Source: Solibacillus sp. FSL H8-0523
Lineage (GTDB): Bacteria > Bacillota > Bacilli > Bacillales_A > Planococcaceae
Assembly: GCF_038051985.1 (NCBI RefSeq)
Contig: NZ_CP150291.1
Span: 1,550,001 to 1,614,000 of the forward strand
Reading direction: 5' to 3'
DNA length: 64,000 bases
Shown here: piece by piece, positions 36,137-52,155 of the stretch
Layout of the letters: every line of letters starts with the position of its first letter
Numbering within the stretch: position 1 is the stretch's first letter
Made by a program: the position numbers and the translations under genes
The notes under the pieces: model-generated
What the model was told of the DNA's origin: nothing
Seen by the model: the letters and a program-made list of their open reading frames with translations, nothing else
Databases searched by the model: none

Positions 36137-36213
36137 CAGGAATTGAAACAACACCCAATTTTTCAATTGACATTGAATTATTTTAGGATAACATTGTTTT
36201 AATATTTGGTCTA

Positions 36214-36240
36214 CCCTTCCCGTAGCGGAGGGGTTTTTTT
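36214..36240 (+). terminator. Terminator after the recombinase-like gene
   Basis: CCCTTCC-CGTAGC-GGAGGGG followed by seven T residues. It is similar in sequence to the terminators at 35429 and 38294. Confidence 0.8.
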
Positions 36241-36341
36241 ATATATTCATCTCACCAAACCACTTCAATTAATGTATAATTAACTGCAAATGAATGATAT
36301 AAAAAATCAACACAAAATTCATCCATAAAAAGGAGAAGAAT

Positions 36342-36713: not shown

Positions 36714-36741
36714 CCATAAGTCGATAGGAGAGTGTAAGCTA

Positions 36742-37065: not shown

Positions 37066-37104
37066 CATTAAAATAGATTACTGAAGCAAGGGAGATTTAC
37101 TGAA

Positions 37105-37236
37105 ATGGGCGAAATAACTTTATTAATATTAGAGGGCATACTATGTCAAGAATGTGGTGCATTCGTTGATGAACAATATATAGGGAGTCCACGTTCATGT
37201 GAAGACTGCAATGACAGCGAAAGCGATTTAGTTTAA
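37105..37236 (+). CDS. Tiny zinc-ribbon-like prophage protein
   Basis: 43 codons encoding MGEITLLILEGILCQECGAF, then ...SPRSCEDCNDSESDLV. Two Cys pairs (CQEC and CEDC), 22 residues apart, form a probable zinc knuckle. GGGAG lies 12 bases upstream of the ATG. Small zinc-ribbon proteins of this kind are common in prophage early and accessory regions. Confidence 0.65.
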   Translation: MGEITLLILEGILCQECGAFVDEQYIGSPRSCEDCNDSESDLV

Positions 37237-37261
37237 ATAAAAAGTAAGTGAGTGATTAACG

Positions 37262-37441
37262 ATTACAGTTTTAAAACGAGATAAAGAAGTTCGCAAAAAA
37301 CTAGAGGAAGCGTTTGAAGATTACTTTGCAAAATTAACAGAAAAAGAGTTGCTTGAACTGCAAGCTAAAATTAACGAGTATATAGAGCAACTAAAAAATA
37401 AGAAACAGAAAACAGCACCGCAGTCGCCTCATATCTTGTAA
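37262..37441 (+). CDS. Small charged helical protein, probable non-ATG start
   Basis: The open frame ends at 37441 and begins after a TGA at 37253. It has no ATG, GTG or TTG at its beginning, so an ATT (37262) start is assumed. The product reads ITVLKRDKEVRKKLEEAFED and continues with KLTEKELLELQAKINEYIEQ, strongly protein-like and amphipathic. Length about 59 residues. A start inside the run, or decay of the start codon, cannot be excluded. Confidence 0.45.
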   Translation: MTVLKRDKEVRKKLEEAFEDYFAKLTEKELLELQAKINEYIEQLKNKKQKTAPQSPHIL

Positions 37442-37558
37442 TTGGATATGGGGTTTTATATTTGTAAATTTTTAATAAACAGGGAATTCTCTATTAATGA
37501 GAATAAAATTTAGCATTACCACATATATAAATTATTATAATATAAGAGGGGGTAAGCA

Positions 37559-38281
37559 ATGAGCGAAAAAAATTTTACAGAACTAACACGCGGGGAATTA
37601 GTCGAACTAATAGCAGAAATGGTTGAGTCAAATCTTTGTAAGCACAAAAAACTAATGGGGATTATCGATGGAGATAAAGAAGATGTAGAAAACATGTTCG
37701 TAATTAAAAATCGTAAGGATAAATATTTTGTAGCAAAATTTGAGTGGACTTACTACAATGACGATGACTCTACTCAATTAGACTGGAAGCAAATTACGAA
37801 AGAAGAGTTTCGTCAGTACATTTTAGACTCTTTAGCTACTCGTTCATTAAATGAGCTACGTCTGGATTATCAAGTAACAAAAAAGGATCAGAATTTTATT
37901 CAGATAAATGAAAAAGTGGAGAAATGTCTTAATGAGTCGATGCAGATAATAGAAACATTGGACATTGAAATGATAAAACGAATCAACAAACCATCTGAAA
38001 TCCCAAATGATTGTGTCTATATTGGGAAGGTAGCAGATAAATTTGACGCTACATTTGAAGAGGCACACAACATTGATTCAAACATTTCAATTTGGCAAAA
38101 TAATGATGGCGTAATTATATTAACTGAGGACGTGAATAAGGAATTAGATTTAATTAAAACAATTGCTGTTAAGCATTTAAACGGAAAAATGTATGTATTT
38201 AAAGACCATGAATCAGAAAAGGAATTAAACGCAGCTCTCATTAAGCTAAGTGAAATGCCATTTGAAAAACCTACTAACTAA
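37559..38281 (+). CDS. Prophage protein of unknown function with a C-terminal domain shared with the gene at 36342
   Basis: A 240-residue acidic protein with site AGAGGGGGTAAGC. The N-terminal ~120 residues (LTRGELVELIAEMVESNLCK, FEWTYYNDDDSTQLDWKQIT) show no known fold. The C-terminal ~95 residues repeat the domain of the 123-residue protein upstream. Located just before a bidirectional terminator, it closes the plus-strand accessory group. A role in lysogen fitness or superinfection control is possible by position only. Confidence 0.7.
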   Translation: MSEKNFTELTRGELVELIAEMVESNLCKHKKLMGIIDGDKEDVENMFVIKNRKDKYFVAKFEWTYYNDDDSTQLDWKQITKEEFRQYILDSLATRSLNELRLDYQVTKKDQNFIQINEKVEKCLNESMQIIETLDIEMIKRINKPSEIPNDCVYIGKVADKFDATFEEAHNIDSNISIWQNNDGVIILTEDVNKELDLIKTIAVKHLNGKMYVFKDHESEKELNAALIKLSEMPFEKPTN

Positions 38282-38293
38282 ACAAAAAAATGC

Positions 38294-38318
38294 CCCCCTC
38301 CATTGCGGAAGGGGTTTT
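38294..38318. terminator. Bidirectional terminator between the accessory group and the late operon
   Basis: CCCCCTCC-ATTGC-GGAAGGGG with TTTTAT on the plus side and a run of seven T on the minus side. It ends both converging transcription units. Confidence 0.85.
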
Positions 38319-38349
38319 ATTTTAAAAATTTACTTAGGTAATATTGAAA

Positions 38350-38502
38350 TTAATGTGCGTTCACTAAAGCCATTAATTCATTGTACTGGATTTCATTCAA
38401 CTGGTCATTCAGCAAAAAGATGTTTAACTTAAATGAAATATCCTCTTTTGATTTATACGATTTTCTTTGGATTAATAATAAGCAAGCACCATACGTATTC
38501 AT
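38350..38502 (-). CDS. Small late prophage protein (last gene of the late operon)
   Basis: 50 residues, MNTYGACLLLIQRKSYKSKE continuing through ISFKLNIFLLNDQLNEIQYN to NELMALVNAH. GGAG lies seven bases before the ATG (38502). Size and position, as the last gene after the fibres, match the small XkdX-like or late hypothetical genes of Bacillus phages, but I see no diagnostic motif. Confidence 0.6.
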   Translation of the reverse strand: MNTYGACLLLIQRKSYKSKEDISFKLNIFLLNDQLNEIQYNELMALVNAH

Positions 38503-38540
38503 TTTCATTCTCCATTCAATTAGTTTTAATTCTAACGGTC

Positions 38541-38834
38541 TTAAACCATGCCCATTTCAATCATTGCTAAACGCAGATCTAAATCAACGGAATAGCCTAA
38601 TGAATCCATAATTTCACTTTTGTTTTCGTTTACTTTATGGGCAATCAATTCTTGAAATTCTTTCAACTCATATTGTGCTTCATCGTATTGCCAAACCTCA
38701 AGTGTCTGGTTATTGCGTCCATTTGTCAATTCGACACGTCTGATATTACTACGAACATAGACCGTATCCACGTTGACTTCAATTTCACTTGGAGTAGTAG
38801 CTTGTACGCTTATAACATCGATAGAGACTTTCAT
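38541..38834 (-). CDS. Late prophage protein of unknown function
   Basis: 97 residues with an excellent site (GAAGGAGG). The beta-rich N-terminal half (VQATTPSEIEVNVDTVYVRS) is followed by an amphipathic acidic helix (YDEAQYELKEFQELIAHKVN). It lies immediately downstream of the fibre array and is probably a structural or assembly accessory of the fibres. No family recognised. Confidence 0.7.
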   Translation of the reverse strand: MKVSIDVISVQATTPSEIEVNVDTVYVRSNIRRVELTNGRNNQTLEVWQYDEAQYELKEFQELIAHKVNENKSEIMDSLGYSVDLDLRLAMIEMGMV

Positions 38835-38874
38835 TGAAATCCTCCTTCGTTTCTAAAAATTAATTTATCAATTA

Positions 38875-40584
38875 TTAAAGATAGGCAAGACGACTTGAAA
38901 TATGTCCGCCAGCTTCCACAACATTAGCAAATGCAGAAAAAATCCCACCAGAATATTGGGGTTCGAAGCCACCATCTAATACTACTGGCGCATATCCTTC
39001 CACTGAATCATTTAATATTTCAACCACATCTGTAAAATAAGTTGTACCAGTACCGCCTGTTTCTGATGGTAAGAAACCTAACTCATTTGTTCCTTGTACA
39101 CTTTTAAGACTACCGTATTCAAATCGTGGAATAGCTCCAACGTTCGTATAATTTTGGCGAATATTAAAATCATCATAAGCATTAAAAATATTGAAATTAA
39201 CATCTATTTGAATTCCACCTAAAACCGTATAGCCAGCACCCCATAAATGCTCAATCCCAAATAACTTAACACGCATATCAATATTATTGATAAATGTCAT
39301 TCCTAAATTATTTAATGTTCCAGCTAATATATCAAGTTCCTGAGCGCCTAAAGCAATTGTATCTTGAGAATCTAAATTTTTATATTTGATTAAGTACAAT
39401 ATTTGAATCATTACATGTTGATAGAAACTATATAATTGATAGCCCGCACCATTTGCTTCTGTTCTTTCTACTAGATCTGGATAGCCCATTGCACCAGCAA
39501 GATTAGTATTACTTAAACTGCGTAGTCTATTTTCAAAAATGGAATTATTATAAGCTCCAATATAACAATAATCCTTTTCAGTACCACCTTGCTTCGTATG
39601 AGCATAACATTTGTAATTAGTATTCACTCTTGAAGTAGATAATGAAATATAAACATTACTACCAACCTTTCGAATATACGTGTAAAATTTAGGGAATTGA
39701 ATCATCACATCTCCGTCATTTCCGCTAGTTATATCGGCAGATGACTCATCTAACTTTTGGGCAAAATTGTTGGGATTAAGATAGTAGTTGACTTCTCCAT
39801 TCAAGAGCATAACAGGCTTAATCTCACTGAAAGGAAAAACATTATCCCACGCACTTGAGCCTGCTGCCATTCCAACTGCATCATCAGCATACGTAACTGA
39901 GGTTTCGGGATTACTATTTGTAGTATCAATAATGACCGTGTAAATTGGGTGTGCAACTGACGTTACACTAGTCTGCTGCGCGTCACTACTATTGAATGTA
40001 TTGGAGCTAGAATAGGTAAAAGCACGATAATAATACGCTTCACCCGCCATTACATCTGTATCTGTGTAAGTAGTAGCGATGCCATTAAAAACAGTCGCAC
40101 CATCTGAAAATGACGTAGGGTAGCCACCTATTTTACGTTGAATACGTATTCCAGAAAGAGAAGCATCTACTGGATTTGTCCACGATAAAATGATTTTGTT
40201 AATTTCAGAAGTAGCTCTAAAATTAGTAATAGGTAAGGGAGGAGTAGGGGGAGTAGTGCCAGGGTTAACGGATGAGATTATACCATTGCTATCAATAACA
40301 ATCGTTGTTCCGTCTGGTATTACATGTCCTAATGAAGAAGTAGTGGCAATTGAAGTTGAATGAGTAGTTAGAGCAGTAATATCAGCTTTTGTGCCAACTA
40401 TTTCATTGATAGCCGCAACTAGCGTTCCTTTTTGAGTAGTTGATAAATTACTAAGTGTTCCGATTAATGAGTTTAACCATGCAGAGTTATTATAATCATA
40501 GACTTGTCCAGAGTTTGTCTCGGGATGGAAAGTATCGGTACTATTCCCATTCACAACCTCAATTTTATGATCAAATGTCGCCAT
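38875..40584 (-). CDS. Tail fibre / receptor-binding protein: adaptor, FN3 domain, C-terminal lectin-like region
   Basis: 569 residues. The N-terminal adaptor (1-65) reads MATFDHKIEVVNGNSTDTFH ... TTQKGTLVAAINEIVGTKA. A block THSTSIATTSSLGHVIPDGT / IVIDSNGIISSV follows, shared with the BppU gene at 50645. An FN3 domain lies at about 115-205 (ILSWTNPVDASLSGIRIQRK). The C-terminal ~350 residues contain HVMIQILYLIKYKNLDSQDT, a pattern I associate with C-type-lectin-like phage fibre tips (tentative). It is the most distal of the adaptor-bearing fibre genes. It presumably attaches to the baseplate through the adaptor and binds the host surface with its tip. Confidence 0.8.
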   Translation of the reverse strand: MATFDHKIEVVNGNSTDTFHPETNSGQVYDYNNSAWLNSLIGTLSNLSTTQKGTLVAAINEIVGTKADITALTTHSTSIATTSSLGHVIPDGTTIVIDSNGIISSVNPGTTPPTPPLPITNFRATSEINKIILSWTNPVDASLSGIRIQRKIGGYPTSFSDGATVFNGIATTYTDTDVMAGEAYYYRAFTYSSSNTFNSSDAQQTSVTSVAHPIYTVIIDTTNSNPETSVTYADDAVGMAAGSSAWDNVFPFSEIKPVMLLNGEVNYYLNPNNFAQKLDESSADITSGNDGDVMIQFPKFYTYIRKVGSNVYISLSTSRVNTNYKCYAHTKQGGTEKDYCYIGAYNNSIFENRLRSLSNTNLAGAMGYPDLVERTEANGAGYQLYSFYQHVMIQILYLIKYKNLDSQDTIALGAQELDILAGTLNNLGMTFINNIDMRVKLFGIEHLWGAGYTVLGGIQIDVNFNIFNAYDDFNIRQNYTNVGAIPRFEYGSLKSVQGTNELGFLPSETGGTGTTYFTDVVEILNDSVEGYAPVVLDGGFEPQYSGGIFSAFANVVEAGGHISSRLAYL

Positions 40585-40629
40585 CTAAACACGTCCTTTC
40601 TTATTGATTATTCGATTTTATTAATGTTA

Positions 40630-41928
40630 TTAAGGTTTAAATGCATTAGGGAAACCAGCTTTTCTAACGTATTCATCAAGGAAAATGGTAGGTGTCAAAT
40701 CCCAAGTTGCAGTAGTGTGAATAAGATTATTTGCAATGCCCGCCAATACTCTTCCATCTTTGTTCGGCCCTCTTAATCCAAAGTAGCATGTATTGGCATT
40801 CCATGTAATGTCTGGGTTAGTTAGTATCTTATGGAAAGTGACTCTATCGGGAGAGTACCAAATGTACCTAGAATCATCACTACCACCATAGAAGCTTTGG
40901 GTTACTATAAGCTCTCCTTTATCACTCATTAATATGTCTAGGCAGTCATTAGGAGTTTGAAATAATTGTTCATATTTAGTTATGTCACCAATCTCATCAT
41001 ATTTACAGCGAATAACTCCTCCATCTGTAGTGTCCCAATTCCAATAAGCGTATTCCCCATAAAACACCATTTGCCCTGCCTTATGTGGCAAACTACTACC
41101 AATCGTTTCGAACGTCCATGAATCATTTACCGTGTCATAAAAACACTGCATAAAGTGGGATTGAGGTCTAGGCTCTGGAGGGAAGTAGTCTCCTGTTAAT
41201 ATCCAAAAGGAGCTATCAGCAGAGTTAAATATAAGATTGTGTACGTGTGTCGCTGCATTACTCCCTGCTACATTAAATTCATACGCTATCTTTATTGTCC
41301 GTCCCTTATCAACTGTATACCAAACTCTTATTGGAACATAAGCAATATTTGTATAATTACCCCACACAAGCATTTCAATACCGTCAACGATCTGTGTCTT
41401 TCGATCATGATTAAAAACATTCAAGTTGTCTACGCCTGTCAATACAATAGGTGAACCGTCTATATCTAAAATAGTTGATTCCGTGTACGATATAAAGTCG
41501 GTAGAATAATACCCCTTAGAATTACTACAAAATAGTAATGTGCCATCACTAAAGATATGGAGATATTTTACTGTTCCGACTTCTGCACCAATAGGCATGG
41601 ATTTGGTAAACGTTAAACCGCCATCCTCACTTAAATGTAAAGAATTATTATGGTTAGACACCATCTTATTATCTTTCATATAAACAACTGTTCTAATATC
41701 AAGTGCTGGTAAACTGTATGCTAATTCTGTATCAATTCCTTTAATACCATCGTCCGTCATTACACGCAACGAATTAGATAGGGAAGGGGGGACTAAATTA
41801 ATACAGCCAATACCATCACTCGTCATTATTCGTAATGGTGAATTTGGAAAGTCGGAAATTGAATACACAGGAATATCATCAAAGCCATCGTCCGAAGAGA
41901 ATTTCAAATAAGATATAGGATTAGCCAT
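40630..41928 (-). CDS. Asp-box beta-propeller fibre protein (copy 1)
   Basis: A 432-residue protein with BNR/Asp-box signatures (LHLSEDGGLTFTKSM; TVDKGRTIKIAY) and repeated strands such as GTLLFCSNSKGYYSTDF, i.e. a sialidase-type beta-propeller. The N-terminus has two copies of a short motif (SPLRIMTSDGIGCINL and NSLRVMTDDGIKGID) common in phage fibres. No catalytic Arg triad of sialidases was recognised, so binding rather than cleavage is likely. Its ATG overlaps the adaptor gene's stop (TAATG), so one adaptor is made per propeller by coupled translation. It is about 75-80% similar to the copy at 42400. Confidence 0.85.
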   Translation of the reverse strand: MANPISYLKFSSDDGFDDIPVYSISDFPNSPLRIMTSDGIGCINLVPPSLSNSLRVMTDDGIKGIDTELAYSLPALDIRTVVYMKDNKMVSNHNNSLHLSEDGGLTFTKSMPIGAEVGTVKYLHIFSDGTLLFCSNSKGYYSTDFISYTESTILDIDGSPIVLTGVDNLNVFNHDRKTQIVDGIEMLVWGNYTNIAYVPIRVWYTVDKGRTIKIAYEFNVAGSNAATHVHNLIFNSADSSFWILTGDYFPPEPRPQSHFMQCFYDTVNDSWTFETIGSSLPHKAGQMVFYGEYAYWNWDTTDGGVIRCKYDEIGDITKYEQLFQTPNDCLDILMSDKGELIVTQSFYGGSDDSRYIWYSPDRVTFHKILTNPDITWNANTCYFGLRGPNKDGRVLAGIANNLIHTTATWDLTPTIFLDEYVRKAGFPNAFKP

Positions 41929-42356
41929 TATAAATCCCTCCTAAACCAAATTCTCCCTACCTCTGGTAAAATAGGGTCACTTGTTCTCGATTCAATTACA
42001 AACTCATTAATTCTTTCCCGTAATTCCACCAATTGATCACTCAATTCTTGGTAGGTAGGCTTATTGGGGGTATTTGCGCCACCATTTTTTTTCTCAAAAA
42101 ACACACTTTTACCTTCTAAATTAGCTGGAATTTCATCAACAACTTCAATAGAGTTCTTACTAGTACTAGCTATTTCATTGATAGCTCCAACAAGCGATCC
42201 TTTTTGAGTAGTAGATAAGCTATTAAGTGTTCCGATTAAAGAATTTAACCAAGCAGAGTTATTATAATCATAGATTTGCCCAGAGTTTGTCTCGGGATGG
42301 AAAGTATCAATGCCGTTTCCATTTACAATCGTAATTTTATGATTAAATGTAGCCAT
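41928..42356 (-). CDS. Stand-alone fibre adaptor (copy 1)
   Basis: A 142-residue protein. The N-terminal ~63 residues (MATFNHKITIVNGNGIDTFH, DYNNSAWLNSLIGTL, TTQKGSLVGAINEIA) are nearly the same as the N-termini of the fibres at 38875, 43704 and 44156. The joint IEVVDEIPANLEGKSVFFEK follows, and the end PILPEVGRIWFRRDL is a typical fibre terminus. It has no receptor-binding tip of its own. The propeller gene begins on its stop codon. It may bind the baseplate and hold the propeller. Confidence 0.85.
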   Translation of the reverse strand: MATFNHKITIVNGNGIDTFHPETNSGQIYDYNNSAWLNSLIGTLNSLSTTQKGSLVGAINEIASTSKNSIEVVDEIPANLEGKSVFFEKKNGGANTPNKPTYQELSDQLVELRERINEFVIESRTSDPILPEVGRIWFRRDL

Positions 42357-42399
42357 TTAAACACGTCCTTTCTTATTGATTATTCGATTTTAGTAAAAT

Positions 42400-43704
42400 T
42401 TATAAAGGTTTAAAGGCATTAGGGAAACCAGCTTTTCTAACGAATTCATCAAGGAACACGCTAGGTTTTAAATCCCAAGTTGCAATAGTACCACTATCGG
42501 AATTTGCAACACCCGCCAATACTCTTCCATCGCTATTCGGCCCTCTTATTCCGTAGTAACATGTTTGTGTACTCCATGTCGCATCTGGATTAGTTAGTAT
42601 CTTATGGAAAGTGACTCTATCGGGAGAGTACCAAATGTTTCTAGCATCTTCAGTCCCACCGTGGAAACTTTGAGTCACTATAAACTCACCTCTATCACTC
42701 ATTATTAAATCCAGACAGTCATTAGGAGTTTGAAATAGTTGCTCATGTTTGGTTATGTCGCCAATCTCATCATATTTACAACGAATGACTCCTCCGTTTG
42801 TAGTGTCCCAAGTCCAGTAAGCATAATCTCCATAAAACACCATATTTGTAGATTTAAACCGTATGCTACTACCAATCGTTTCAAACGTCCATGAGTCGTT
42901 CACAGTGTTATAAAAACACTTTATAAAATGGGACATAGGAGTGACTTCGGGAGGAAAATAGTCTCCTGTTTGTATCCAAAATGAGCTATCAGCAGGATTA
43001 AATAAGACATTGTGTACGTGATGCGCTCCGTTACCTCCACCCGCATTAAATTCATATGCTATCTTTAATGTTCGTCCTTTATCAACTGTGTACCATACTA
43101 GTATTCGGACATTAGAATGCGTATAATTACCCCACACAAGCATCTCAACTCCGTCAACTACTTGTACGCTCCGATCATGATTAAATGCATTGAAGCTATC
43201 TACGCCTGTCATTACAACAGGTGAGCCATTTTTATCTAAAAGAGTCGATTCCCTGTACGTTAAAAAATCAGTAGAGTAGTAAGCTTTTGTATTACTACAG
43301 AATAGTAATGTACCATCGTTAAAGATATGGAATTGTTTTAATGTTCCGACTTCTGCACCTATAGGCATAGTTTTGGTAAATGTTCTTCCACCATCTTCAC
43401 TTAAATGTAAAGAACCATCATGGTTAGACACCATCCACTTATCTTTCATATAAACAACTGTTCTAATGGCAAGTGGTGGCAAGTTAAATTCGACTTCTTC
43501 TTCTGTAATAATCCCTTTTATACCATCGGCAGTCACTACACGTAACGGCGAAGAGAGGGGAGATTCCACTAGATTAAAACAACCAATACCACTACTTGTC
43601 ATTATTCGTAATGGCGAATTCGGAAAGTCAGAAATCGAATATACAGGAAAATTTTCAAAACCATCTCGCTTAGAAATTTTCAAATAAGATATAGGATCAG
43701 CCAC
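42400..43704 (-). CDS. Asp-box beta-propeller fibre protein (copy 2)
   Basis: 434 residues, starting at the GTG that overlaps the adaptor stop (TAGTG, 43704); the in-frame extension to 43725 lies inside the adaptor. The same motif order as copy 1 is seen (SPLRIMTSSGIGCFNL, LHLSEDGGRTFTKTM, TVDKGRTLKIAYEFN, YWTWDTTNGGVIRC). Differences cluster in loops (NAGGGNGAHHVHN against NVAGSNAATHVHN), which may alter ligand preference. It is probably a receptor-binding propeller with an affinity distinct from copy 1. Confidence 0.85.
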   Translation of the reverse strand: MADPISYLKISKRDGFENFPVYSISDFPNSPLRIMTSSGIGCFNLVESPLSSPLRVVTADGIKGIITEEEVEFNLPPLAIRTVVYMKDKWMVSNHDGSLHLSEDGGRTFTKTMPIGAEVGTLKQFHIFNDGTLLFCSNTKAYYSTDFLTYRESTLLDKNGSPVVMTGVDSFNAFNHDRSVQVVDGVEMLVWGNYTHSNVRILVWYTVDKGRTLKIAYEFNAGGGNGAHHVHNVLFNPADSSFWIQTGDYFPPEVTPMSHFIKCFYNTVNDSWTFETIGSSIRFKSTNMVFYGDYAYWTWDTTNGGVIRCKYDEIGDITKHEQLFQTPNDCLDLIMSDRGEFIVTQSFHGGTEDARNIWYSPDRVTFHKILTNPDATWSTQTCYYGIRGPNSDGRVLAGVANSDSGTIATWDLKPSVFLDEFVRKAGFPNAFKPL

Positions 43705-44078
43705 TATAAATCCTCCCTCAACCAAATTCTCCCTATTGCTGGAGAGATAGGGTCATTCGTTCTTGTTTCAACTACAATAGTTGAAGGTTTATCGGGAGCA
43801 TCAGAAAGCTCACCTTGCTTTTCAAAAAGGACACTTTTACCTTCTAAATTAGTTGGGATCTCATCAACAACTTCAATAGTTTTTTTACTAGCTATTTCAT
43901 TTAAAGCTTCAACAAGCGATCCTTTTTGAGTAGTAGTTAATGTACTTAATACTCCAATGATTGAATTTAACCATTTTTCGTTAGTAAAATCATATACTTG
44001 TGTACTATTAGTCTCTGGATGATAAATATCAGTACTATTCCCATTCACAACCTCAATTTTATGGTTGAATGTTGCCAT
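43704..44078 (-). CDS. Stand-alone fibre adaptor (copy 2)
   Basis: 124 residues: the conserved adaptor (MATFNHKIEVVNGNSTDIYH, WLNSIIGVLSTLTTTQKGSL), the joint IEVVDEIPTNLEGKSVLFEK and the end PISPAIGRIWLREDL. It is followed by propeller copy 2 on its stop codon. Its adaptor is closer to that of the beta-helix gene at 44156 (WLNSIIGVLSTL) than to that of copy 1 (WLNSLIGTLNSL), indicating exchange of N-termini among genes. Confidence 0.85.
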   Translation of the reverse strand: MATFNHKIEVVNGNSTDIYHPETNSTQVYDFTNEKWLNSIIGVLSTLTTTQKGSLVEALNEIASKKTIEVVDEIPTNLEGKSVLFEKQGELSDAPDKPSTIVVETRTNDPISPAIGRIWLREDL

Positions 44079-44155
44079 CTAAAACACTTCCTTTATATTA
44101 ATCGAATATAATGTATGGATTGTATACATTAAGAAAAGTTTTACGTTTAAGTAAA

Positions 44156-46000
44156 CTATTCGAATCTGTAATGCGGGTTGTATACATGTAAAAATGTTCC
44201 TGGATCATCTGCTCGGAAGTAGAATTTAAGTTCTAAGTAGATGTCGTCATTCCCCTCAAAGGAATTGAATCCTCCCGTTACCGATTCTACAAACCTTGCC
44301 CCTGGTGTTGGCAACAAATAAAACGTGTGCATTGCAGTATAAGCGGCGTTACTTGCTGACGGTCTGCCGTGAAAAATGAAATCAACACGCAAATTTTCAC
44401 GGTCTGTATCAATCATTAATCCCACCATATTTATAGCTCTGTAATTCTCCATGTCAACGGGATAGAATATAGATGTGTTGTTTTCTGTTATATTTTCGCT
44501 TCGGCCTGTTGTAATGTCATTAAACTCAACTGCTCCTCTTGCTAACAAAAAGCTATTCAGTACCTTTAGCTTATTTGTTACACTAAATTTAGCAGCTCCT
44601 AAATTTAAGTAATACGGCGTTCCCTCGGTTAGTGAGTTTGAAATAATTGTGCTTGCACTGTCTAGCACATCCCCACCATCAAAAATTGGTATTGGATAGT
44701 TTGAATACAAAGAATTTTTTTCGTAGTTAAATGACTTTATAGCTCTCGCAAAAACGCCCCAACCGTCTAACCCAGCGCCCGCCTCTATCTTAACTAAACT
44801 AGTAACCGAACTATCCAGTAAATTTTCATGCCCAAAATTATCATAAAAATTTACAGTGCTAATGTACTTTAGTGTTCGTGGCTCATCGATTTTATCGACT
44901 TTAACATGCAATAACCCCAAAAAGTTTTGCTCAGAGTAATTGCCTTTGATGTTGATGGAATCGCACGATATAGGGCCACTCCCACGAACAAGATCCGAAT
45001 TAATATCGTACCCGTATTTTCTATTTCCTTGTACGGTATTACCTTCAATATTTATACTGTTGCCCCATAATTCAAAACCACTTCCCCCGTTATTTGCAAT
45101 GTTACAACCACGCACATTAACGCCGTTTATTTGATGCGAACCTGCTGTTGCTACAAAATGTACGGCGCATCCCTTGTTGAATTCAATTTCACTATTAACA
45201 ATATTGATGTTGTTAACGTGTCCGTTATCGCCTCCGTGAAAACCATCGCCACCGTGCCCGCGTACCGTTACGTTTTCGAAATTCCATGATATAGAATTAT
45301 TCAAAAATACAATGCCATGCCCGCTCGTTGCGTTTGTGCCAAAAATGCTCGTACCATTTCCTAATATAGCAAGATCTTTAAAAAGACCACGTTCCGCATT
45401 TTCTTCAATAGTTATCGCATCGTTCAACGAAATATTTCGTAAACCCGAACCGAATCGACCGCTACCACGAAAATTTATATATTTGGCGGGTACTCTAAAC
45501 CCTGTATGATCGTACACACCTTGCGGGATTTCCACCGTGCCTCCCTCGGGAACGTCTGTTATGGCTTGTTTAATTGCATTTGTCCAATCATCATCAACGA
45601 CCAAATGTTGATAGTCTATAATATTTACTATGCCTTTCGAACGTTTATCAATTTTTTCAAATTGTGAAGCTTGTGAGTCAAGTACATCGAATACTTCTTC
45701 AATCGTGGGCTTATTAGGAGCATTAGACGAGCCACTTTGCTTCGAAAAGAAAACATTTTTGCCTTCTAAATTAGTCGGGATTTCATCAACAACTTCAATA
45801 GAATTCTTACTAGCTATTTCATTGATAGCTGCAACGAGTGAAGATTTTTGAGTAGTAGATAATGTACTTAATACTCCAATGATTGAATTTAACCAATTCT
45901 CATTAGTAAAATCATATACTTGCTCACTATTAGTCTCTGGATGAAAAGTATCAACATTATTCCCATTTACAACTTCAATTTTATGATTGAATGTCGCCAT
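44156..46000 (-). CDS. Fibre protein with adaptor and pectin-lyase-like beta-helix
   Basis: 614 residues from ATG 46000, eight bases after a perfect AAGGAGG (GTG 46009 is less likely). Adaptor 1-65, joint IEVVDEIPTNLEGKNVFFSK, then from ~125 a right-handed beta-helix. It opens with DWTNAIKQAITDVPEGGTVE, IPQGVYDHTGFRVPAKYI and repeated Asn-ladder coils (NNINIVNSEIEFNKG, GCNIANNGGSGFELWG, NIEGNTVQGNRKYG). Such helices form trimeric tailspikes that bind or cut surface polysaccharide. The C-terminal ~130 residues form a beta-domain, probably the trimer cap. Enzymatic activity is possible but no catalytic set is identified. Confidence 0.85.
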   Translation of the reverse strand: MATFNHKIEVVNGNNVDTFHPETNSEQVYDFTNENWLNSIIGVLSTLSTTQKSSLVAAINEIASKNSIEVVDEIPTNLEGKNVFFSKQSGSSNAPNKPTIEEVFDVLDSQASQFEKIDKRSKGIVNIIDYQHLVVDDDWTNAIKQAITDVPEGGTVEIPQGVYDHTGFRVPAKYINFRGSGRFGSGLRNISLNDAITIEENAERGLFKDLAILGNGTSIFGTNATSGHGIVFLNNSISWNFENVTVRGHGGDGFHGGDNGHVNNINIVNSEIEFNKGCAVHFVATAGSHQINGVNVRGCNIANNGGSGFELWGNSINIEGNTVQGNRKYGYDINSDLVRGSGPISCDSINIKGNYSEQNFLGLLHVKVDKIDEPRTLKYISTVNFYDNFGHENLLDSSVTSLVKIEAGAGLDGWGVFARAIKSFNYEKNSLYSNYPIPIFDGGDVLDSASTIISNSLTEGTPYYLNLGAAKFSVTNKLKVLNSFLLARGAVEFNDITTGRSENITENNTSIFYPVDMENYRAINMVGLMIDTDRENLRVDFIFHGRPSASNAAYTAMHTFYLLPTPGARFVESVTGGFNSFEGNDDIYLELKFYFRADDPGTFLHVYNPHYRFE

Positions 46001-46030
46001 TTTAACCACCTCCTTAAAATGATTTTCTAC

Positions 46031-47881
46031 TTATACTGTATTTCCAATTGCATCAATCCAAGCAGAATTAGTAGCATTTCTCCAAATTGGTTTATTAAGA
46101 GTAGTATCAAAAAATTCTTGAAATGCCACAGGATTTGAAGGTCGATTTGCGGTAATCCCATTCTCCCATACCTTGTTATTAATAACGTTTTTGTTCATGT
46201 TTATGCTGCCATAAATTTCTCCACCACGAGAATTCACATAATAATTTCCCATATGATTATTTGAATACATGTAAATAGTTCCAATACCAATTACACTATT
46301 AGGATTTAGCGCTGCGTTATAAATGCCCTCTGACAAAGTTATTTTCATCTTCGCAACATTCGCTCCAATCATGGAAATCAATGATCTAACGCAACTATTT
46401 CTATTATCTATTGTGTCTATTACTGTCGTATAGCTTCCATTCAATGAACTAGAATATTCAATTTTCACATTTTTAGGAATTAAACCATCGTTAAATGTAA
46501 TTCCCATTTCTGGAACTCCGTAATATATAGTAGGCAAAATAATCTCAATTACCATAGGATTACTTGCAGTTACAGGAGAAATTGTTACTTTGTTCATTGT
46601 AAAGAAATCATCTAAGTTTCCGTACCATAATACGCCACTACCCAAGTTAGTATTTACAGTAGCAAATTTATTAGCGTTCCATAGGACATTTGAATATAAT
46701 CCTTTGAAATTTGTCCACCTAGATATAATCCAGTTGTTATCTGAGTCGTAGCTATAATTATCGGCTATTTGTGGACTGTAAGCATAATCATTTTCAGCAG
46801 TAACGATATTGTTACTTCTTCCATAATCTGCAATATGAGTCAAAATATAAGTCACACTGAATCCCATTCCAGAAACAACGTTATATCCCGATTGACTAGT
46901 GAATAGTATTGTTATGAAATAATCATTCTTTGGAGCATCCCATATCATTCCAGTAAAGTTATTATGACTTCCTCCACAAATTATAGCCTTGTCATCCTGT
47001 GCGACTTCAGGCATACGAAATTGAAAAGTGAAAGTGAACCTGTTTCCATCGCCCGTATTACGGATGCCATACCTACAACCCAACAAATAAATATCCTCAC
47101 AAAAAATTCCATTAGACCAGCCAGTGCCAATATTAAAAATTTCAATACCCGTTAAGCAATTCATAATATATACATTGTGTATTGTAATTCCAGTGGCATT
47201 AAAATCTGATTCAGATTTTATAGATATTCCTGTCGTTGCCATTGTTTGTGCATGAGCAAATATAAAAATATCTCTAATTGAGGAAATAAACCCATGATCC
47301 CAAAAAGGAGTCATAAAATCTTTATTGTGAATTATGATTGCGATTTTATCGTGACCACGAGGAACAGACAAACGCATGTTTTCTAATCTACACATAGGAT
47401 TGAAGTCTATAAATTCCTTATTAGTCACCGTTAATAGTAACTCAGTGCTATGAGTGCCCAACAAAGCATTCGAGTTTGTTAAAATAATTGTATCGTTGAA
47501 ATAGTATTCATTATCACCGAACACAATTGATTTTTCCGAATTAGCGCTCAGAAAATTATTAAGCATTGTCACGTTATGTTGCGCTCTACTAGAATTATTT
47601 GGAACAATACCAATTGATTCGGCCGTTATATTAACACTAGGTTTATTAGGCGCATTGCCATTGCCATTGCCATTTCTACTGAAAAATACTCCTTTACCCT
47701 CTAAATTAGTTGGAATTTCATCAACAATTTCAATATGTTTTTTAGTTGTATCTACAAAGTGCTCCACTATACTGTCGCCAGTTATCGGATTAATAACTTG
47801 CTCTATAGTTGTTTCTGGATGTAAAACATTAAATGTACCATCAGCATTTTTTTCATTCATTTTTATTTTTTTGTTTACCAT
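46031..47881 (-). CDS. Fibre protein with type-2 adaptor and beta-helix
   Basis: 616 residues. It carries the second adaptor type (MVNKKIKMNEKNADGTFNVL, HPETTIEQVINPITGDSIVE), the joint IEIVDEIPTNLEGKGVFFSR and an Asn/Gly linker (NGNGNGNAPNKPS). A pectin-lyase-like beta-helix follows (~110-470; MLNNFLSANSEKSIVFGDNE, GISIKSESDFNATGITIHNV). The end is NRPSNPVAFQEFFDTTLNKP-type, a common phage-fibre C-terminus. It is likely a trimeric receptor-binding or depolymerising spike. It shares only the joint with the type-1 genes downstream, showing module mixing. Confidence 0.83.
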   Translation of the reverse strand: MVNKKIKMNEKNADGTFNVLHPETTIEQVINPITGDSIVEHFVDTTKKHIEIVDEIPTNLEGKGVFFSRNGNGNGNAPNKPSVNITAESIGIVPNNSSRAQHNVTMLNNFLSANSEKSIVFGDNEYYFNDTIILTNSNALLGTHSTELLLTVTNKEFIDFNPMCRLENMRLSVPRGHDKIAIIIHNKDFMTPFWDHGFISSIRDIFIFAHAQTMATTGISIKSESDFNATGITIHNVYIMNCLTGIEIFNIGTGWSNGIFCEDIYLLGCRYGIRNTGDGNRFTFTFQFRMPEVAQDDKAIICGGSHNNFTGMIWDAPKNDYFITILFTSQSGYNVVSGMGFSVTYILTHIADYGRSNNIVTAENDYAYSPQIADNYSYDSDNNWIISRWTNFKGLYSNVLWNANKFATVNTNLGSGVLWYGNLDDFFTMNKVTISPVTASNPMVIEIILPTIYYGVPEMGITFNDGLIPKNVKIEYSSSLNGSYTTVIDTIDNRNSCVRSLISMIGANVAKMKITLSEGIYNAALNPNSVIGIGTIYMYSNNHMGNYYVNSRGGEIYGSINMNKNVINNKVWENGITANRPSNPVAFQEFFDTTLNKPIWRNATNSAWIDAIGNTV

Positions 47882-48011
47882 TTATCCTTAACCCTCCTAA
47901 TTACACCTCAAACCAAATACCACCCACTCCTAAAGGAGGGTGGCACAGTATATATTTATTTTAATAGGTGATTTTTCAAAAAAATGACTACCAAACTTCA
48001 GAAAAGCGTGG

Positions 48012-48278
48012 TTACTTAGGGGGTAACAACTGTGCCACTACCATATTTAAAGTTTGTGATAATCTAGCGTTCTCTTGTCGTAATTCCTCTAATTGTTCTT
48101 CTATAGACAATGTGGGTAAGTCGTATTCTTGTCCTTCCTCTAAACGAATCATTTCAAAATTACTTATGCCTAGTAAACTAAAGACTTCTTTACCTTCTGT
48201 ATAGCCGATAATACTGTCAGTATCTTTGACTATTTTCTCTGCTTCGTGACGATGATTTCCAAAATATAAAACTTTCAT
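48012..48278 (-). CDS. Small prophage protein between fibre genes
   Basis: 88 residues, MKVLYFGNHRHEAEKIVKDT start, an acidic middle (EMIRLEEGQEYDLP) and a C-terminal coiled-coil helix (LEELRQENARLSQTLNMVVA). It lies 15 bases after the 776-residue fibre gene with site AGGAGGC. Such small proteins often follow fibre genes as assembly helpers, though no family is recognised here. Confidence 0.7.
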   Translation of the reverse strand: MKVLYFGNHRHEAEKIVKDTDSIIGYTEGKEVFSLLGISNFEMIRLEEGQEYDLPTLSIEEQLEELRQENARLSQTLNMVVAQLLPPK

Positions 48279-48293
48279 TGTATAGCCTCCTAA

Positions 48294-50624
48294 TTAAAAG
48301 AATATTTGACCGCCAGTACCTTTACGTTGCGCCATCGGAGTTGTAACCGTACCTGGACGACCTGTAATAATGGACGCGTATGAATTATACGTAGATGCTG
48401 TAGATGCAGGATTCGAACCAGACAATTGATCGACATAAACATACGAGCTTTTATCAGCTTCTATAATTGAACCAGGCACGTTATTAAAAGTGATGTATTC
48501 AACAGAAACTTTAGAGAAACTTACATCAACCCCGATCACCACACCTTCCCACGTACCATAATAGATGTGAACGAGCGGACAATTTAAAATATATGCTCCA
48601 TACACATATACTTCTGTTATAGGTGCTATAACGCGTATATCTGTATGAATAATACGAATGAGCGCTGTTGAATCTTCTATCCTAAAACCTTTAACTGTTG
48701 CCCTAGCATTGTACGTACCGTTGAACGTCAATCTGTTTCCATGAATACCAGATAAGTCTACAACCTCATTGAAAACTTGATATTCTGCCAGCTTAATCTC
48801 ACGATCTTTAGCGTTGACTCTCTTCACCAGTTCCACGGCTTTAGCAATAGTCTTGACTGCTGTAGCAGCAGATTTTCCATCATTTGTGTCTGAGCCATTA
48901 TTGTTAACATAAATAATTACTGTACCATCTACATAATCAGAACCGCTTCCCATACCGCCTTGTAGAATAAAGGAGTTAGTAGTAGTGCTGTAGCGGAATG
49001 TATACACACCATTTATTCTCAAGTCTGATACGCTAGTTCCATCAGCATTACGAAGCGCTCTACCACCAAGTCCATTGACATTAACCGAAGGGCTCATAAT
49101 AGATGAGGCGTGAATGGACAATACTAATCCCATACCTTCTACGTATGCTGTCGGTGCGGGGGCTAGAGTAACATCATATACGCTACCCGTTCCTGACGTT
49201 CGAGCAATGCCTTCATGTTTAGTGTAGTCGTTTGCGTGAATATCGACTTTAGCTTGCGCACCTGTACTTGTTTCTCTTGTATTCCATTTAGCTATGTCAA
49301 TATCACTCACAAACCGATTATTTGCGTCTTGTGTAATAATAGATGCTGGATGATTAGTGGGGTGGGTGTAGTTGTTTGCACTTGCGGCAATTCCATTTAA
49401 TTTTGTTTTGTCGGCAGAACTCATAAGTCCGTTTACACTGGTTGTTGCTAAGGAACTAGAGGCATTCCATGTAGTTTTTTCGGCATCCGTGACAAACCGA
49501 TTATTTGTGTCTTGGATGATGATGGATGCTGGATGATTGGCAGGATGTGTATAGTTGTTTGCGCCCGTTGCAATTCCATTTAGTTTTGTTTTATCAGCAG
49601 AACTCATAAGTCCGCTAACACTAGTTGTTGCTGTGGAATTAGGAGCTTTTTCATTCCATGTGGCTTTTTCAGCATCCGTTACAAAACGATTATTAGTATC
49701 TTGTGTAATAATGGAAGCAGGATGGTTAGAAGGGTGTGTGTAATTGTTTGCATTTGTAGCAATTCCGTCTAATTTCGTTTTGTCTCCCGAACTCATGAGT
49801 CCGTTTGAATTAGCTGTTGCTGTGGAAGTAGGAGTTTTTTCATTCCATATACTTTTTTCGGCATCACTTACAAACCGATTATTTGCATCTTGGATGATGA
49901 TGGATGCTGGATGACTAGTGGGATGGGTATAGTTGTTTGCATTTGCAGCAATTCCATTTAGTTTTGTTTTGTCAGAAGAACTCATAAGTCCGTTTGAACT
50001 AGTTGTTGCTATAGAAGTAGGTGTTTTTTCATTCCATGTAGCTTTTTCCATATCAGTGACAAAACGATTGTCAGCATCCTGGATGATGATGGAAGCAGGG
50101 TGGTTAGCGGGGTGTGTATAATTGTTTGCATTTGTGGCGACTCCGTTTAATTTTGTTTTGTCAGCAGAACTCATAAGCCCATTTGAGCTAGTTGTTGCTA
50201 TGGAGGTAGGAGTTTTTTCATTCCATGCTGTGCGCTCCGCACTTGTTATATGTTGTACTGCATCGTTTGCGTGTTGATCCATAGTTGACTTCAAACTATT
50301 TATAGCAGCAACTAAAGAAGTTTTTTGAGAAGTCGTTAGTGAATCCATATTTCCTATAACAGTATATATCTCTTGAAATGTAATAGGTTTATCGGGAGTA
50401 TTTAAAGTTGCATCTTCCTTTTTAAAGAAAATACCTTTTCCTTCTAAATTGGTTGGGATTTCATCTACAATTTCAATGTGTTTTTTAGTCGTATCTAAAA
50501 AATGTTCTACAATATTTTGTCCAGTTGAAGGATTAATAACTTGTTCTATCGTTGTTTCTGGATGAAGGGTATTGTAAGTGCCGTTTGAATTTTTTTCATT
50601 CATTTTTATTTTTTTGTTTACCAT
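48294..50624 (-). CDS. Long tail fibre with type-2 adaptor, six shaft repeats and beta-helix tip
   Basis: 776 residues. It starts with the type-2 adaptor (MVNKKIKMNEKNSNGTYNTL) and the joint IEIVDEIPTNLEGKGIFFKK. A shaft of about six 59-64 residue repeats follows, each with GLMSSADKTKLNGIA, NNYTHPANHPASIIIQD and RFVTDAEKATWN. A central region (GTGSVYDVTLAPAPTAYVEG) leads to a beta-helix tip beginning VIIYVNNNGSDTNDGKSAAT. The shaft is the typical extended fibre repeat of tailed phages. Repeat identity is high, so length changes by slippage or recombination are likely. Probably the longest of the host-reaching fibres. Confidence 0.88.
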   Translation of the reverse strand: MVNKKIKMNEKNSNGTYNTLHPETTIEQVINPSTGQNIVEHFLDTTKKHIEIVDEIPTNLEGKGIFFKKEDATLNTPDKPITFQEIYTVIGNMDSLTTSQKTSLVAAINSLKSTMDQHANDAVQHITSAERTAWNEKTPTSIATTSSNGLMSSADKTKLNGVATNANNYTHPANHPASIIIQDADNRFVTDMEKATWNEKTPTSIATTSSNGLMSSSDKTKLNGIAANANNYTHPTSHPASIIIQDANNRFVSDAEKSIWNEKTPTSTATANSNGLMSSGDKTKLDGIATNANNYTHPSNHPASIITQDTNNRFVTDAEKATWNEKAPNSTATTSVSGLMSSADKTKLNGIATGANNYTHPANHPASIIIQDTNNRFVTDAEKTTWNASSSLATTSVNGLMSSADKTKLNGIAASANNYTHPTNHPASIITQDANNRFVSDIDIAKWNTRETSTGAQAKVDIHANDYTKHEGIARTSGTGSVYDVTLAPAPTAYVEGMGLVLSIHASSIMSPSVNVNGLGGRALRNADGTSVSDLRINGVYTFRYSTTTNSFILQGGMGSGSDYVDGTVIIYVNNNGSDTNDGKSAATAVKTIAKAVELVKRVNAKDREIKLAEYQVFNEVVDLSGIHGNRLTFNGTYNARATVKGFRIEDSTALIRIIHTDIRVIAPITEVYVYGAYILNCPLVHIYYGTWEGVVIGVDVSFSKVSVEYITFNNVPGSIIEADKSSYVYVDQLSGSNPASTASTYNSYASIITGRPGTVTTPMAQRKGTGGQIFF
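49330..50235 (-). repeat. Coding tandem repeats of about 177-192 bp in the long fibre
   Basis: About six units recur, each containing a TAATTTTGTTTTGTC-like block and the coding sequence for NNYTHPANHPASII. They are recognisable at DNA level at about 49393, 49570, 49762, 49957 and 50149, a spacing of 177-195 bases. Confidence 0.8.
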
Positions 50625-50644
50625 TTGTTCTTAATCCTCCTTCC

Positions 50645-51682
50645 TCACAATACTTGATACCAAATACCGCCAGTTGGTAATAAAGGTGGAGCAGTACCAC
50701 TTACAATAATGCCTTCTCCCGTACCAGTTGAACCACCGCCACCAACAGACGAGATGATACCGTTACTATCAATTATGATTGTAGTGCCATCGGGTCTTAC
50801 GTGGCCTGCCTGTGAAGTAGTTGCGACAATAGAAGTATGAGTAGTTAGATTATCATTTAATAGTTTTGCTTGTGCTGCGGTAACTGCTTGTGATGTAGAT
50901 GTGCTAGTCAATGTATTGTTAAGTTGGACAATACCTTTTTCAGTTGTGGAAGCATCTACGACTGTAACGCCAGTGCCGCCGCCAGTACCATCTGCACCTT
51001 TTTGCGCTAACAATCTCCACCAAGTATTTTGTATTGTCGGTAAAGTAGGTAGGGGATTGTTTTGTGTATTTGCAAGTGCGATCCATGAAGAACCATTTGA
51101 GGTTACAATATTATTCTTTAGATAAGCTGTAGAAAGATTAAACGCGCCAATAGAGCGAGTATTGTCTGCAATTGCTTGGGCATTATTTATTGCGATATTC
51201 GCTTGAGCAACTGCTTGATTCGCACTAGCTACCGCTTGTGTTGCTTGCCCCGAAACACCCGAAACACTAGTAATTAACTGTTGTAAAATACCGATTTCTG
51301 GTGAAGCTCCAATAGATTCCTCATAAGTATCGCCAACAATCTCTACTTTAAATGGTAGAATAGAAACCTTCTTATCAGCCGAATATACAGAAAGTGAAGT
51401 AGAAACAAAACCAGGTTGACTCATTTCATTTCCTTGATAAGTGTAACGAATAGTTTTTATGCCATCAGATAATGTTTCAAGTGCACCATAACCAATAACA
51501 ACCGTTCCGTCTGGAAGTTTATGTGAGACTTCTGCGCTAGTAAAGTCAGTTAAATCAAATGCTTTTCCATTATCATAAATTTTAAAAACTAGTGTAGCGC
51601 TATCATATTGTACGAAAATGGGGATAATAGTTGACATGCTTTTCTTTATGTCCACGGATAATATATATTCATTTTTAAACAT
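50645..51682 (-). CDS. Baseplate upper protein (BppU-like)
   Basis: 345 residues. The N-terminal BppU domain (~16-125) reads IIPIFVQYDSATLVFKIYDN, DFTSAEVSHKLPDGTVV and YTYQGNEMSQPGFVSTSLSV. A coiled linker (ATQAVASANQAVAQANIAIN) and a carbohydrate-binding-like stretch (GAFNLSTAYLKNNIVTSNGS) come next. The end shares GHVRPDGTTIIIDSNGIISS with the fibre at 38875. In lactococcal phages BppU links the baseplate hub to the receptor-binding proteins. Here it precedes the whole fibre array in the operon, fitting that role. Confidence 0.85.
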   Translation of the reverse strand: MFKNEYILSVDIKKSMSTIIPIFVQYDSATLVFKIYDNGKAFDLTDFTSAEVSHKLPDGTVVIGYGALETLSDGIKTIRYTYQGNEMSQPGFVSTSLSVYSADKKVSILPFKVEIVGDTYEESIGASPEIGILQQLITSVSGVSGQATQAVASANQAVAQANIAINNAQAIADNTRSIGAFNLSTAYLKNNIVTSNGSSWIALANTQNNPLPTLPTIQNTWWRLLAQKGADGTGGGTGVTVVDASTTEKGIVQLNNTLTSTSTSQAVTAAQAKLLNDNLTTHTSIVATTSQAGHVRPDGTTIIIDSNGIISSVGGGGSTGTGEGIIVSGTAPPLLPTGGIWYQVL

Positions 51683-51747
51683 TTCTTTTACACCTTCCTT
51701 TTCAAGTAAAAAAGGAGACGCATATATTTGCTCTCCTTATTATCTAT

Positions 51748-52155
51748 TTATTTCATATTTAATTTAATGAAAATGTAACTTGCAACACCAGCGATAATTG
51801 CGGAAAAGAACCATCCCATTGCTTTTTTGAAGGATTTTGGAATATTAATAGTATCCGCTGCTTCAATATTTTCAACTTTAATCGTTACTTTATCTACGTC
51901 ATTCATTACAACAGCAATATCATCTTTTAATCCTTGAACTTCATAAGCAATAACTTGATTACTTTCACTGATTTTCAGTAGAGCTTGATTAATAGAGTCC
52001 AATGATTTTTGATGTAATTCGGCAATTATAGCTAAACGGTTTAATGCTTCTGTATCCTTTTCTAATTTCTTAATACTACGTTCCTTACTAATATCTCGTT
52101 CTTCTAGTTTAACTATTCGAGAAATAAGCTCCGTTTTATTGCAGTCGTTTTCCAT
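51748..52155 (-). CDS. Coiled-coil protein with C-terminal membrane anchor (XhlA-like)
   Basis: 135 residues. A long heptad-rich coiled coil (ISRIVKLEERDISKERSIKK; ITKVENIEAADTIN) is followed by one C-terminal membrane helix (GWFFSAIIAGVASYIFIKLN). This is the layout of XhlA-type lysis-associated proteins, which lie on the inner face of the membrane and help the holin. It is next to the DUF1617-like gene and the amidase. Assignment by topology only. Confidence 0.75.
   Translation of the reverse strand: MENDCNKTELISRIVKLEERDISKERSIKKLEKDTEALNRLAIIAELHQKSLDSINQALLKISESNQVIAYEVQGLKDDIAVVMNDVDKVTIKVENIEAADTINIPKSFKKAMGWFFSAIIAGVASYIFIKLNMK

Follow-up and report, generated by a model that had tools for sequence, protein, structure and literature searches.

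How can one phage baseplate be served by so many different fibre proteins? The question is raised by a minus-strand gene array of Solibacillus sp. FSL H8-0523, lying in a stretch of 64,000 nucleotides (nt) that we call the window (positions 1,550,001-1,614,000 of the complete 4.14 Mb genome), where the gene for a BppU-like baseplate hub protein is followed by fibre-class reading frames that share N-terminal blocks, here called heads and joints. Phage host range depends on fibre tips. We consider it probable that the array forms the host-recognition end of an SPbeta-like siphophage prophage's late operon, in which a single BppU-type hub is accompanied by six fibres whose heads are related, four of them single chains and two split into a holder and a separately encoded, translationally coupled tip. 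The junction between the two genes of each split fibre, as read from the DNA, is an addition to the original prediction that was made from the letters of this region.

Two short adaptor proteins had been taken for small helpers of the array. Instead, each consists of a head, a joint and a C-terminal tag, and its stop codon overlaps a separate propeller-like gene. Both adaptors end in DPxxPxxGRIW(F/L)RxDL, and their last codons (TTTAGGAGGGATTTATAATGG and TTGAGGGAGGATTTATAGTGG) contain a coding-embedded Shine-Dalgarno sequence followed by a stop that shares one base with the next start (TAATG for adaptor B, TAGTG for adaptor A); the tip gene follows directly, overlapping by 1 nt (at 41928 for B and at 43704 for A). 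In the window, GATTTATARTGG is found twice against an expectation of 0.03. The propeller expected as a fibre tip corresponds to a propeller-like pair in separate genes rather than to a part of the adaptor chain, the gene at 42400 starting with GTG 43704 inside the adaptor stop. In order of transcription, all on the minus strand, with lengths in amino acids (aa) and open reading frames abbreviated as ORFs, the features are:

50645-51682, minus: BppU-like baseplate hub protein, 345 aa (PF10651 BppU_N, E 3.7e-8), with a GHVRPDGTTI block in common with the FN3 fibre; it ends in GGIWYQVL, by eye a possible degenerate tag.
48294-50624, minus: type-2 head, joint, about five 63-aa repeats and a C-terminal domain, 776 aa (repeats D1/D3; Phage_head_fibr, E 1.7e-16; fibre PHROGs).
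48012-48278, minus: 88-aa small protein between the two type-2 fibres (ORF with a Shine-Dalgarno-like site).
46031-47881, minus: 616 aa, with type-2 head, joint and beta-helix tail spike (match to the tail-spike family phrog_12123, E 3.4e-16).
44156-46000, minus: 614 aa, with type-1 head, joint and probable beta-helix tip (BLASTP for head and joint; a weak phrog_17585 match, E 1e-6, for the tip; beta-helix by eye).
43704-44078, minus: adaptor A, 124 aa, with type-1 head, joint and C-terminal tag DPISPAIGRIWLREDL (BLASTP, junction sequence).
43704-43733, minus: tag and coupling element A, with GRIWLREDL codons, embedded GGGAGG Shine-Dalgarno sequence and TAG stop overlapping a GTG start.
42400-43704, minus: tip gene A, 434 aa, with an N-terminal LRVMT-type partner domain (about 67 aa) and a possible Asp-box propeller.
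41928-42356, minus: adaptor B, 142 aa, with type-1 head, joint and C-terminal tag DPILPEVGRIWFRRDL (BLASTP, junction sequence).
41928-41957, minus: tag and coupling element B, with GRIWFRRDL codons, embedded AGGAGG Shine-Dalgarno sequence and TAA stop overlapping an ATG start.
40630-41928, minus: tip gene B, 432 aa, a paralogue of tip A (74% identity, BLASTP).
38875-40584, minus: 569 aa, with type-1 head, GHVIPDGTTI block, FN3-like region (by eye) and a C-terminal region belonging to a retroelement-target family (match to the tail protein phrog_5302, E 2e-48).
38541-38834, minus: last operon gene, 97 aa (ORF with a Shine-Dalgarno-like site; phrog_18126, E 0.001).
38294-38314, minus: terminator-like hairpin 3' of the last gene (9 pairs, 6 of them G-C, then a T run).

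The 614-aa length is counted from ATG 46000, whereas the ORF program starts the frame at GTG 46009. Terminator-like sites in the region number 9 against 7.9 in shuffles, and the hairpin is thus a single-site judgement. An NCBIfam search of ten proteins returned no family for any, and the 88-aa protein matched no NCBIfam family and no Pfam family above cut-off.

In the explanation that we favour, the type-2 fibres of 776 and 616 aa and the type-1 fibres of 614 and 569 aa would be single chains carrying their own tips, while adaptors A and B would expose GRIW(F/L)RxDL at their C termini. Because the tag codons hold the Shine-Dalgarno sequence of the tip gene and the stop overlaps its start, holder and tip would be expected to be made in step, with the terminating ribosome restarting on the tip gene. 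The tip would dock non-covalently, via its LRVMT-type domain, on the adaptor C terminus; the heads would attach to BppU or another common baseplate site; and several fibres would share one virion. More tentatively, and with the odds somewhat against it, tag and partner domain could form a general plug-and-socket fibre junction through which unrelated tips are exchanged as separate genes, one 30-nt stretch serving as socket peptide, ribosome site and stop/start for the next gene. Most comparators in this analysis are metagenomic contigs whose hosts are not known. If the idea is true, a conserved holder/tip junction would account for the way in which some phages combine an unchanging holder with differing tips, and the tag would be a short signature for unannotated receptor-binding proteins beside 'hypothetical' adaptors.

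The junction recurs outside the window. The first 64 residues of the propeller-like proteins have relatives in two genomes of the same family (Paenisporosarcina) and in Bacillus phage Mater, and an alignment of these N-terminal relatives led to one further phage contig; in all four, the same tag with TAATG ends the upstream gene. The four upstream proteins form one BLASTP group with those of three other loci (L057, L066 and L074), two matching the tail-spike family phrog_12123, and downstream of the four tags lies either a bare 68-aa domain (twice) or a protein of 214-216 aa. A tag scan of 2.9 million viral contigs found the tag with an overlapping start in 19 stretches and with TAA or TAG and any next base in 42; the viral contigs hold 44 tag places overall, 35 fitting a stricter tag expression and one (L077) looking like chance. 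Among 35 unique, untruncated tag genes, a sample not conditioned on overlap, a 1-nt ATG overlap was present in 13, compared with 27 of the 322 control genes taken from those contigs on that strand (simple ORF calls, redundant copies kept), and an ATG opening at least 60 codons lay within -4 to +20 in 31 of the 35 compared with 154 of the 322. The tag arginine codon was AGG in 15 of 17 overlapping tags versus 5 of 23 non-overlapping ones (p 7e-5; 40 non-redundant places, window and Paenisporosarcina included), while in the rest of the overlapping group's upstream ORFs AGG accounted for 17 of 146 arginine codons. A bias of this kind would follow if ribosome binding preserves the codons; AGGG, GGAG or AGGA stood at or just 3' of the stop in 12 of the 23 non-overlapping tags. 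Seven of ten upstream proteins scanned matched a tail-labelled PHROG and two matched none. The tag strings did not occur in the open-access paper text searched, nor was a tag junction described among the matches listed in the open-access literature (titles and abstract starts). In Paenisporosarcina (L039:3069-4198 and L040), a tag-ended spike-like protein is paired with the bare 68-aa partner domain, and in L039 sugar-metabolism-type genes come next, by eye, instead of an obvious tail operon; this pair is possibly a stand-alone derived cassette.

Short-tag searches of annotated phages gave no match better than E 0.1 and pointed to the Bacillus phages Staley and Stills, each of which has an undivided 864-aa spike with BppU_N at its N terminus (E 1.5e-25 and 8e-23). 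Residues 166-699 of the Staley chain align with Mater gp153 in two segments (59% over 508 and 40% over 226 positions), its GQVWYRTD pairs with the GQMWFRSD at residue 818 of 819 in gp153, and residues 691-863 match Mater gp152 from residue 42 on (38%, E 6e-35). By these alignments, the single Staley gene corresponds to a pair of overlapping Mater genes, with the cut at the tag, and Stills is alike. The two L074 genes likewise match positions 74-611 and 650-752 of a single PHROG, phrog_12123. Fused and split spikes, together with L074, make the strongest case that the downstream product has its place where the upstream fibre ends. The spikes of Mater, Staley and Stills thus share the tag with our array, Mater as two overlapping genes with an LRVMT-type domain and Staley and Stills fused to its second half; they differ in that their shafts are annotated as pectin-lyase-type, the payload is another domain than the propeller-like one, and the heads are different.

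With a profile of the partner domain, built from ten tip N termini, 15 of the 40 frames that follow a tag gave a match and none of the 44 that end in one. The same contigs hold 2599 further frames, many of them spurious ORFs, of which 2 matched, and these two look like copies of one gene (L050/L052). The linked frames include near-duplicates (L068/L082 and L053/L065). Eight comparable N-terminal carriers fall into six payload groups with no mutual BLASTP match, a count that left out L062, L064 and one window gene. The profile found the domain in the own genome only among 398 genomes of the phylum; of 398 genomes of the class, five had a match at E 0.001, two of them weak (G341 and G370), and no match appeared in the examined stretches of Perkons, LC76P1, Sundance and two SPbeta-like phages. 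In one genome (G358) the domain is also fused to the C terminus of a fibre-like protein. The profile counts support a functional link between tag and partner domain, although the varied placement of the domain weakens the simplest picture of an N-terminal plug.

Several results weigh against docked tips as the explanation. Six of the 15 linked frames were training members of the profile, and without them the count is 9 of 34. Only 9 of the 15 have the domain at their N terminus, five having it at the C terminus and one (L053) in the interior, and in Paenisporosarcina its 68 aa stand alone, which would also suit a generic terminal or folding domain instead of a plug. Of 48 tag places, 44 have a downstream ORF, and 25 of these ORFs lack the domain; the 25 form 17 BLASTP groups, two of which should be discounted (one cut copy and one likely chance tag). 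Staley and Stills hold only the second half of the domain, and the profile did not detect it in either at E 1, so that their link rests on BLASTP; because Staley holds only half, we are slightly less confident in the favoured explanation. Exact tag DNA is rare, occurring in 2 of 388 class genomes at three places, with the overlap at each. Only three of ten downstream proteins scanned match a tail-labelled PHROG and five match none.

Several of these points would also fit propeller-like proteins that act as folding helpers or free enzymes, with a chaperone-like partner domain that leaves once assembly is complete. T4 gp38 is such a released chaperone (PMC12892980). The lone 68-aa domain and the presence of the domain at either end of downstream proteins speak for this reading. 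We nevertheless judge it unlikely, since in Staley and Stills the matching tip region is covalently part of the spike and some downstream proteins include carbohydrate-binding or Ig-like domains. Four of five downstream viral-contig proteins compared with Pfam have matches (L069, L083, L053 and L060, but not L056), with CBM96 in L069 and L083, Big_2 in L060 and Ig-like domains in several.

The propeller-like proteins can be read, by analogy, as non-covalent tips that work like the gp37-gp38 pair of T2 and S16. There, gp38 is described as a separately encoded tip on the gp37 shaft trimer, its N-terminal part contacting the shaft (PMC12892980). In both cases the tip gene is directly downstream of the shaft gene; here, by contrast, a short, head-only adaptor lies upstream, the tag codons hold the Shine-Dalgarno sequence of the tip, and two such pairs stand beside four fused fibres. 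No gp37 or gp38 family appeared when adaptor and propeller were compared with Pfam, PHROGs and PDB sequences, which makes the pair similar in working and not a family member. The Ackermannviridae offer a second parallel: as described in PMC11414711, one phage has several receptor-binding proteins with conserved N-terminal domains, combined in a branched tail-spike complex. Our array has conserved N termini too but belongs to a Gram-positive, SPbeta-like siphophage with a BppU hub, and it has shared heads and joints, while its Pfam and PHROG matches contain none named as a branching domain. The TP901-1 type BppU/BppL baseplate has the BppU_N domain in common with our hub and differs in having one kind of fibre where we see several; for the heads of our array, attachment to BppU is a prediction.

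The heads, joints and blocks described in the original prediction, namely four type-1 heads, two type-2 heads, five joints and a GHVxPDGTTI block in the FN3 fibre and BppU, are present at the coordinates it gave, on the minus strand and far above chance. As DNA repeats, the type-1 heads occupy 251 nt at 40391, 42163, 43885 and 45807 (67-85% to the reference copy), the joints 109 nt at 42055, 43783, 45705, 47640 and 50383 (63-79%), the type-2 heads 217 nt at 47682 and 50425 (81%) and the block 106 nt at 40267 and 50744 (71%). In BLASTP comparisons, identity among the six type-1 pairs ranges from 58% (the two adaptors, aligned over their whole length) to 79%, with E from 2e-26 to 9e-58; the type-2 heads are 77% identical over 81 aa (E 6e-36) and the FN3 fibre/BppU block 77% over 35 aa (E 5e-12). 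The prediction of seven fibre-class frames needs adjustment, since eight stand beside BppU, two of them the head-only adaptors of 142 and 124 aa. Its two N-terminal types were both found but are not separate kinds: they align at 43% over 100 aa (E 3e-10), and because HPETxxxQV and the joint occur in both, we regard them as versions of one head.

Fifteen of 36 pairs among nine genes of the array have a block or blocks in common. In a comparison with author-picked genes from annotated relatives, such sharing occurred in 5 of 36 gene pairs of Mater and 6 of 21 of Lysinibacillus phage LC76P1, and in no pair of Perkons (11 genes), Sundance (12), or one Staphylococcus and one Mammaliicoccus phage (2 each); the array, expected to be unusual for its length, is so in degree only. 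The LSTTQKGSLVAAINEI stretch is more widely distributed, with PHROG matches and weak matches in Gordonia phages (E 0.02-0.1). Against annotated phages, type-1 heads gave weak matches alone (E 0.02-0.1), mostly to the helix stretch; among 261 genomes of the family they occurred in the own genome alone, the other match (G043) covering 33 positions of that stretch, and a peptide-pattern search of limited reach confirmed no kin in viral or genome contigs. Propeller A, the 776-aa fibre and the 569-aa tip had no kin in viral contigs, nor the 614-aa fibre in annotated phages.

The original prediction left a choice between several tips on one baseplate and a reservoir from which tips are swapped. Silent divergence (dS) is 0.55 for the propellers, 0.32-0.84 for the six type-1 head pairs and 1.5 for the type-2 heads, and the ratio of replacement to silent divergence (dN/dS; Nei-Gojobori, 63-431 codons) is 0.28, 0.20-0.35 and 0.10, respectively. 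Nine of ten joint pairs (20 codons) have dN/dS of 0.07-0.44, one being saturated, as is the GHV block (30 codons). Substantial silent divergence with low dN/dS argues for old, maintained genes and not for a fresh swap cassette. Decay of duplicates in a functionless prophage relic is therefore a very improbable reading: type-1 head relatives are found in 0 of 260 other family genomes, as a relic might have it, but all frames are open and heads and propellers keep dN/dS of 0.10-0.38 at dS 0.3-1.5.

Some reshuffling has nevertheless left a trace. In a 189-nt comparison the type-1 heads, 75-87% identical, group as FN3 fibre with adaptor B and adaptor A with the 614-aa fibre (21 informative sites against 4; 1000 of 1000 bootstraps), and the FN3 fibre and adaptor B have 82% in common in the 60 bases upstream. 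Unlike the heads, the proteins downstream of the two adaptors are each other's sisters, and the FN3 fibre carries a block otherwise present in BppU. These relationships support past, but old, reshuffling within the operon; in the simplest story, a holder-plus-propeller unit was duplicated and the head of each copy also reached a neighbouring fibre.

Repeated heads and discordant head and tip histories would also be expected of a switching cassette, in which one fibre is used at a time and a serine recombinase or repeat recombination brings in the others, and a resolvase-family gene (35556-36125) lies on the prophage side of the synteny break. We think this improbable, since every gene is on one strand with its own Shine-Dalgarno-like site, the repeats have diverged, positions 35000-52000 hold a single weak inverted-repeat pair (24 nt, 83%), and a scan with the hix-like site pattern gave dyads at chance frequency (3 against 2.8 expected, none inside the array). 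A Gin/Hin-type inversion or phase-variation cassette was rejected for lack of inverted sites flanking alternative fibre ends, the hix-like sites not exceeding chance. The same diverged repeats (heads 75-87%, joints 63-79%), weak inverted repeat and chance dyads count against a swap reservoir as an active mechanism; several tips on one baseplate are favoured by the intact frames, the Shine-Dalgarno-like sites seen by eye and purifying selection on the shared blocks (dN/dS about 0.1-0.4).

Synteny with the 15 other genomes of the genus ends at about 35265 of the window, near the 3' end of an ABC-transporter gene, and we take this break as the prophage edge. From there inward lie a small serine recombinase gene (35556-36125; Resolvase and HTH_7), 2.4 kb from the array and between edge and fibres, for which no target sites turned up, and three plus-strand genes (36342-38281; 123, 107 and 240 aa) between the recombinase and the operon end; the 123-aa and 240-aa frames matched no Pfam family (E 0.05 and E 0.01). 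The minus-strand operon runs from a 1175-aa frame of tape-measure size through a DUF6558-type tail protein, a YomG_N/endopeptidase-tail protein, an FN3 tail protein and lysis-type genes (by eye) to BppU, the fibres, the 97-aa last gene and the hairpin-T site at 38314-38294. The YomG_N-type protein (PF24049, E 3e-23) marks an SPbeta-like siphophage tail, and its relatives include Psychrobacillus, Lysinibacillus, Brevibacillus, Bacillus and staphylococcal SPbeta-like phages. BppU scores 33.6 bits for BppU_N against a cut-off of 23.1 and, in a search of PDB sequences, weakly matches a putative tail fibre (4mtm). Its C terminus (50645-50700) reads PPLLPTGGIWYQVL, resembles the adaptor tags and lies 20 nt ahead of the first type-2 fibre; BppU may thus present a degenerate socket.

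Some of the proteins might instead be head or neck fibres, as Phage_head_fibr matches in the 776-aa repeats and a 'head and packaging' PHROG (phrog_20787) in the 616-aa fibre would suggest. We think this improbable, given that the 776-aa repeats also match tail-fibre-labelled PHROGs and the genes adjoin BppU downstream of tail genes and have tail-spike and tail-protein matches.

The tip folds named in the original prediction fared unevenly. A beta-helix is borne out in the 616-aa fibre by its tail-spike match, and residues 573-614 of that protein match the solved tailspikes 5w6f and 6nw9 (E 5e-6). The propeller has Vps10/sortilin matches under the Pfam cut-off (E 0.014 and 0.03) and 3 and 5 Asp-box-like motifs against shuffled means of 0.33 and 0.40, for a pattern chosen after seeing the sequence. 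FN3 is not found by Pfam at E 0.1, and the FN3 fibre gave no useful alignment with the FN3-bearing 464-aa tail protein. Neither the 569-aa fibre nor propeller B nor the 614-aa fibre matched a PDB sequence. Propeller, FN3 and some beta-helix readings are thus possible predictions from weak profiles, motifs or eye, and the lectin-like tip is supported solely via homology to a retroelement-diversified protein.

That protein is ORF176 of Psychrobacillus phage Perkons, a homologue of the C-terminal part of the 569-aa fibre (25% over 339 aligned positions). In Perkons (MT325768.1, 90877-93399; L021:6878-9400) a reverse transcriptase (RT; PF00078, E 6e-16) adjoins ORF176, and two 137-nt copies differ at 32 sites; at every one of the 32, the copy that lies outside the gene has an A. 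Such A-only template mismatches with an adjacent RT are the mark of a diversity-generating retroelement, which Perkons appears to carry; the annotation there gives only 'reverse transcriptase' and 'hypothetical protein'. In the Solibacillus genome the 3' end of the 569-aa gene has no second copy, the gene itself being the sole match, so the tip appears fixed here and would be a fixed relative of the Perkons variable protein. Active retroelement diversification of this fibre was rejected because the genome search gave no template repeat. Of five RT_1 matches in the genome, none of them in the window, four have equal score and frame length and one is distant. A lone RT_1 gene at L030 (G000:C1:1488657-1489262), with a YADD motif and unlike the four other RT_1 genes, looks retron-like by eye.

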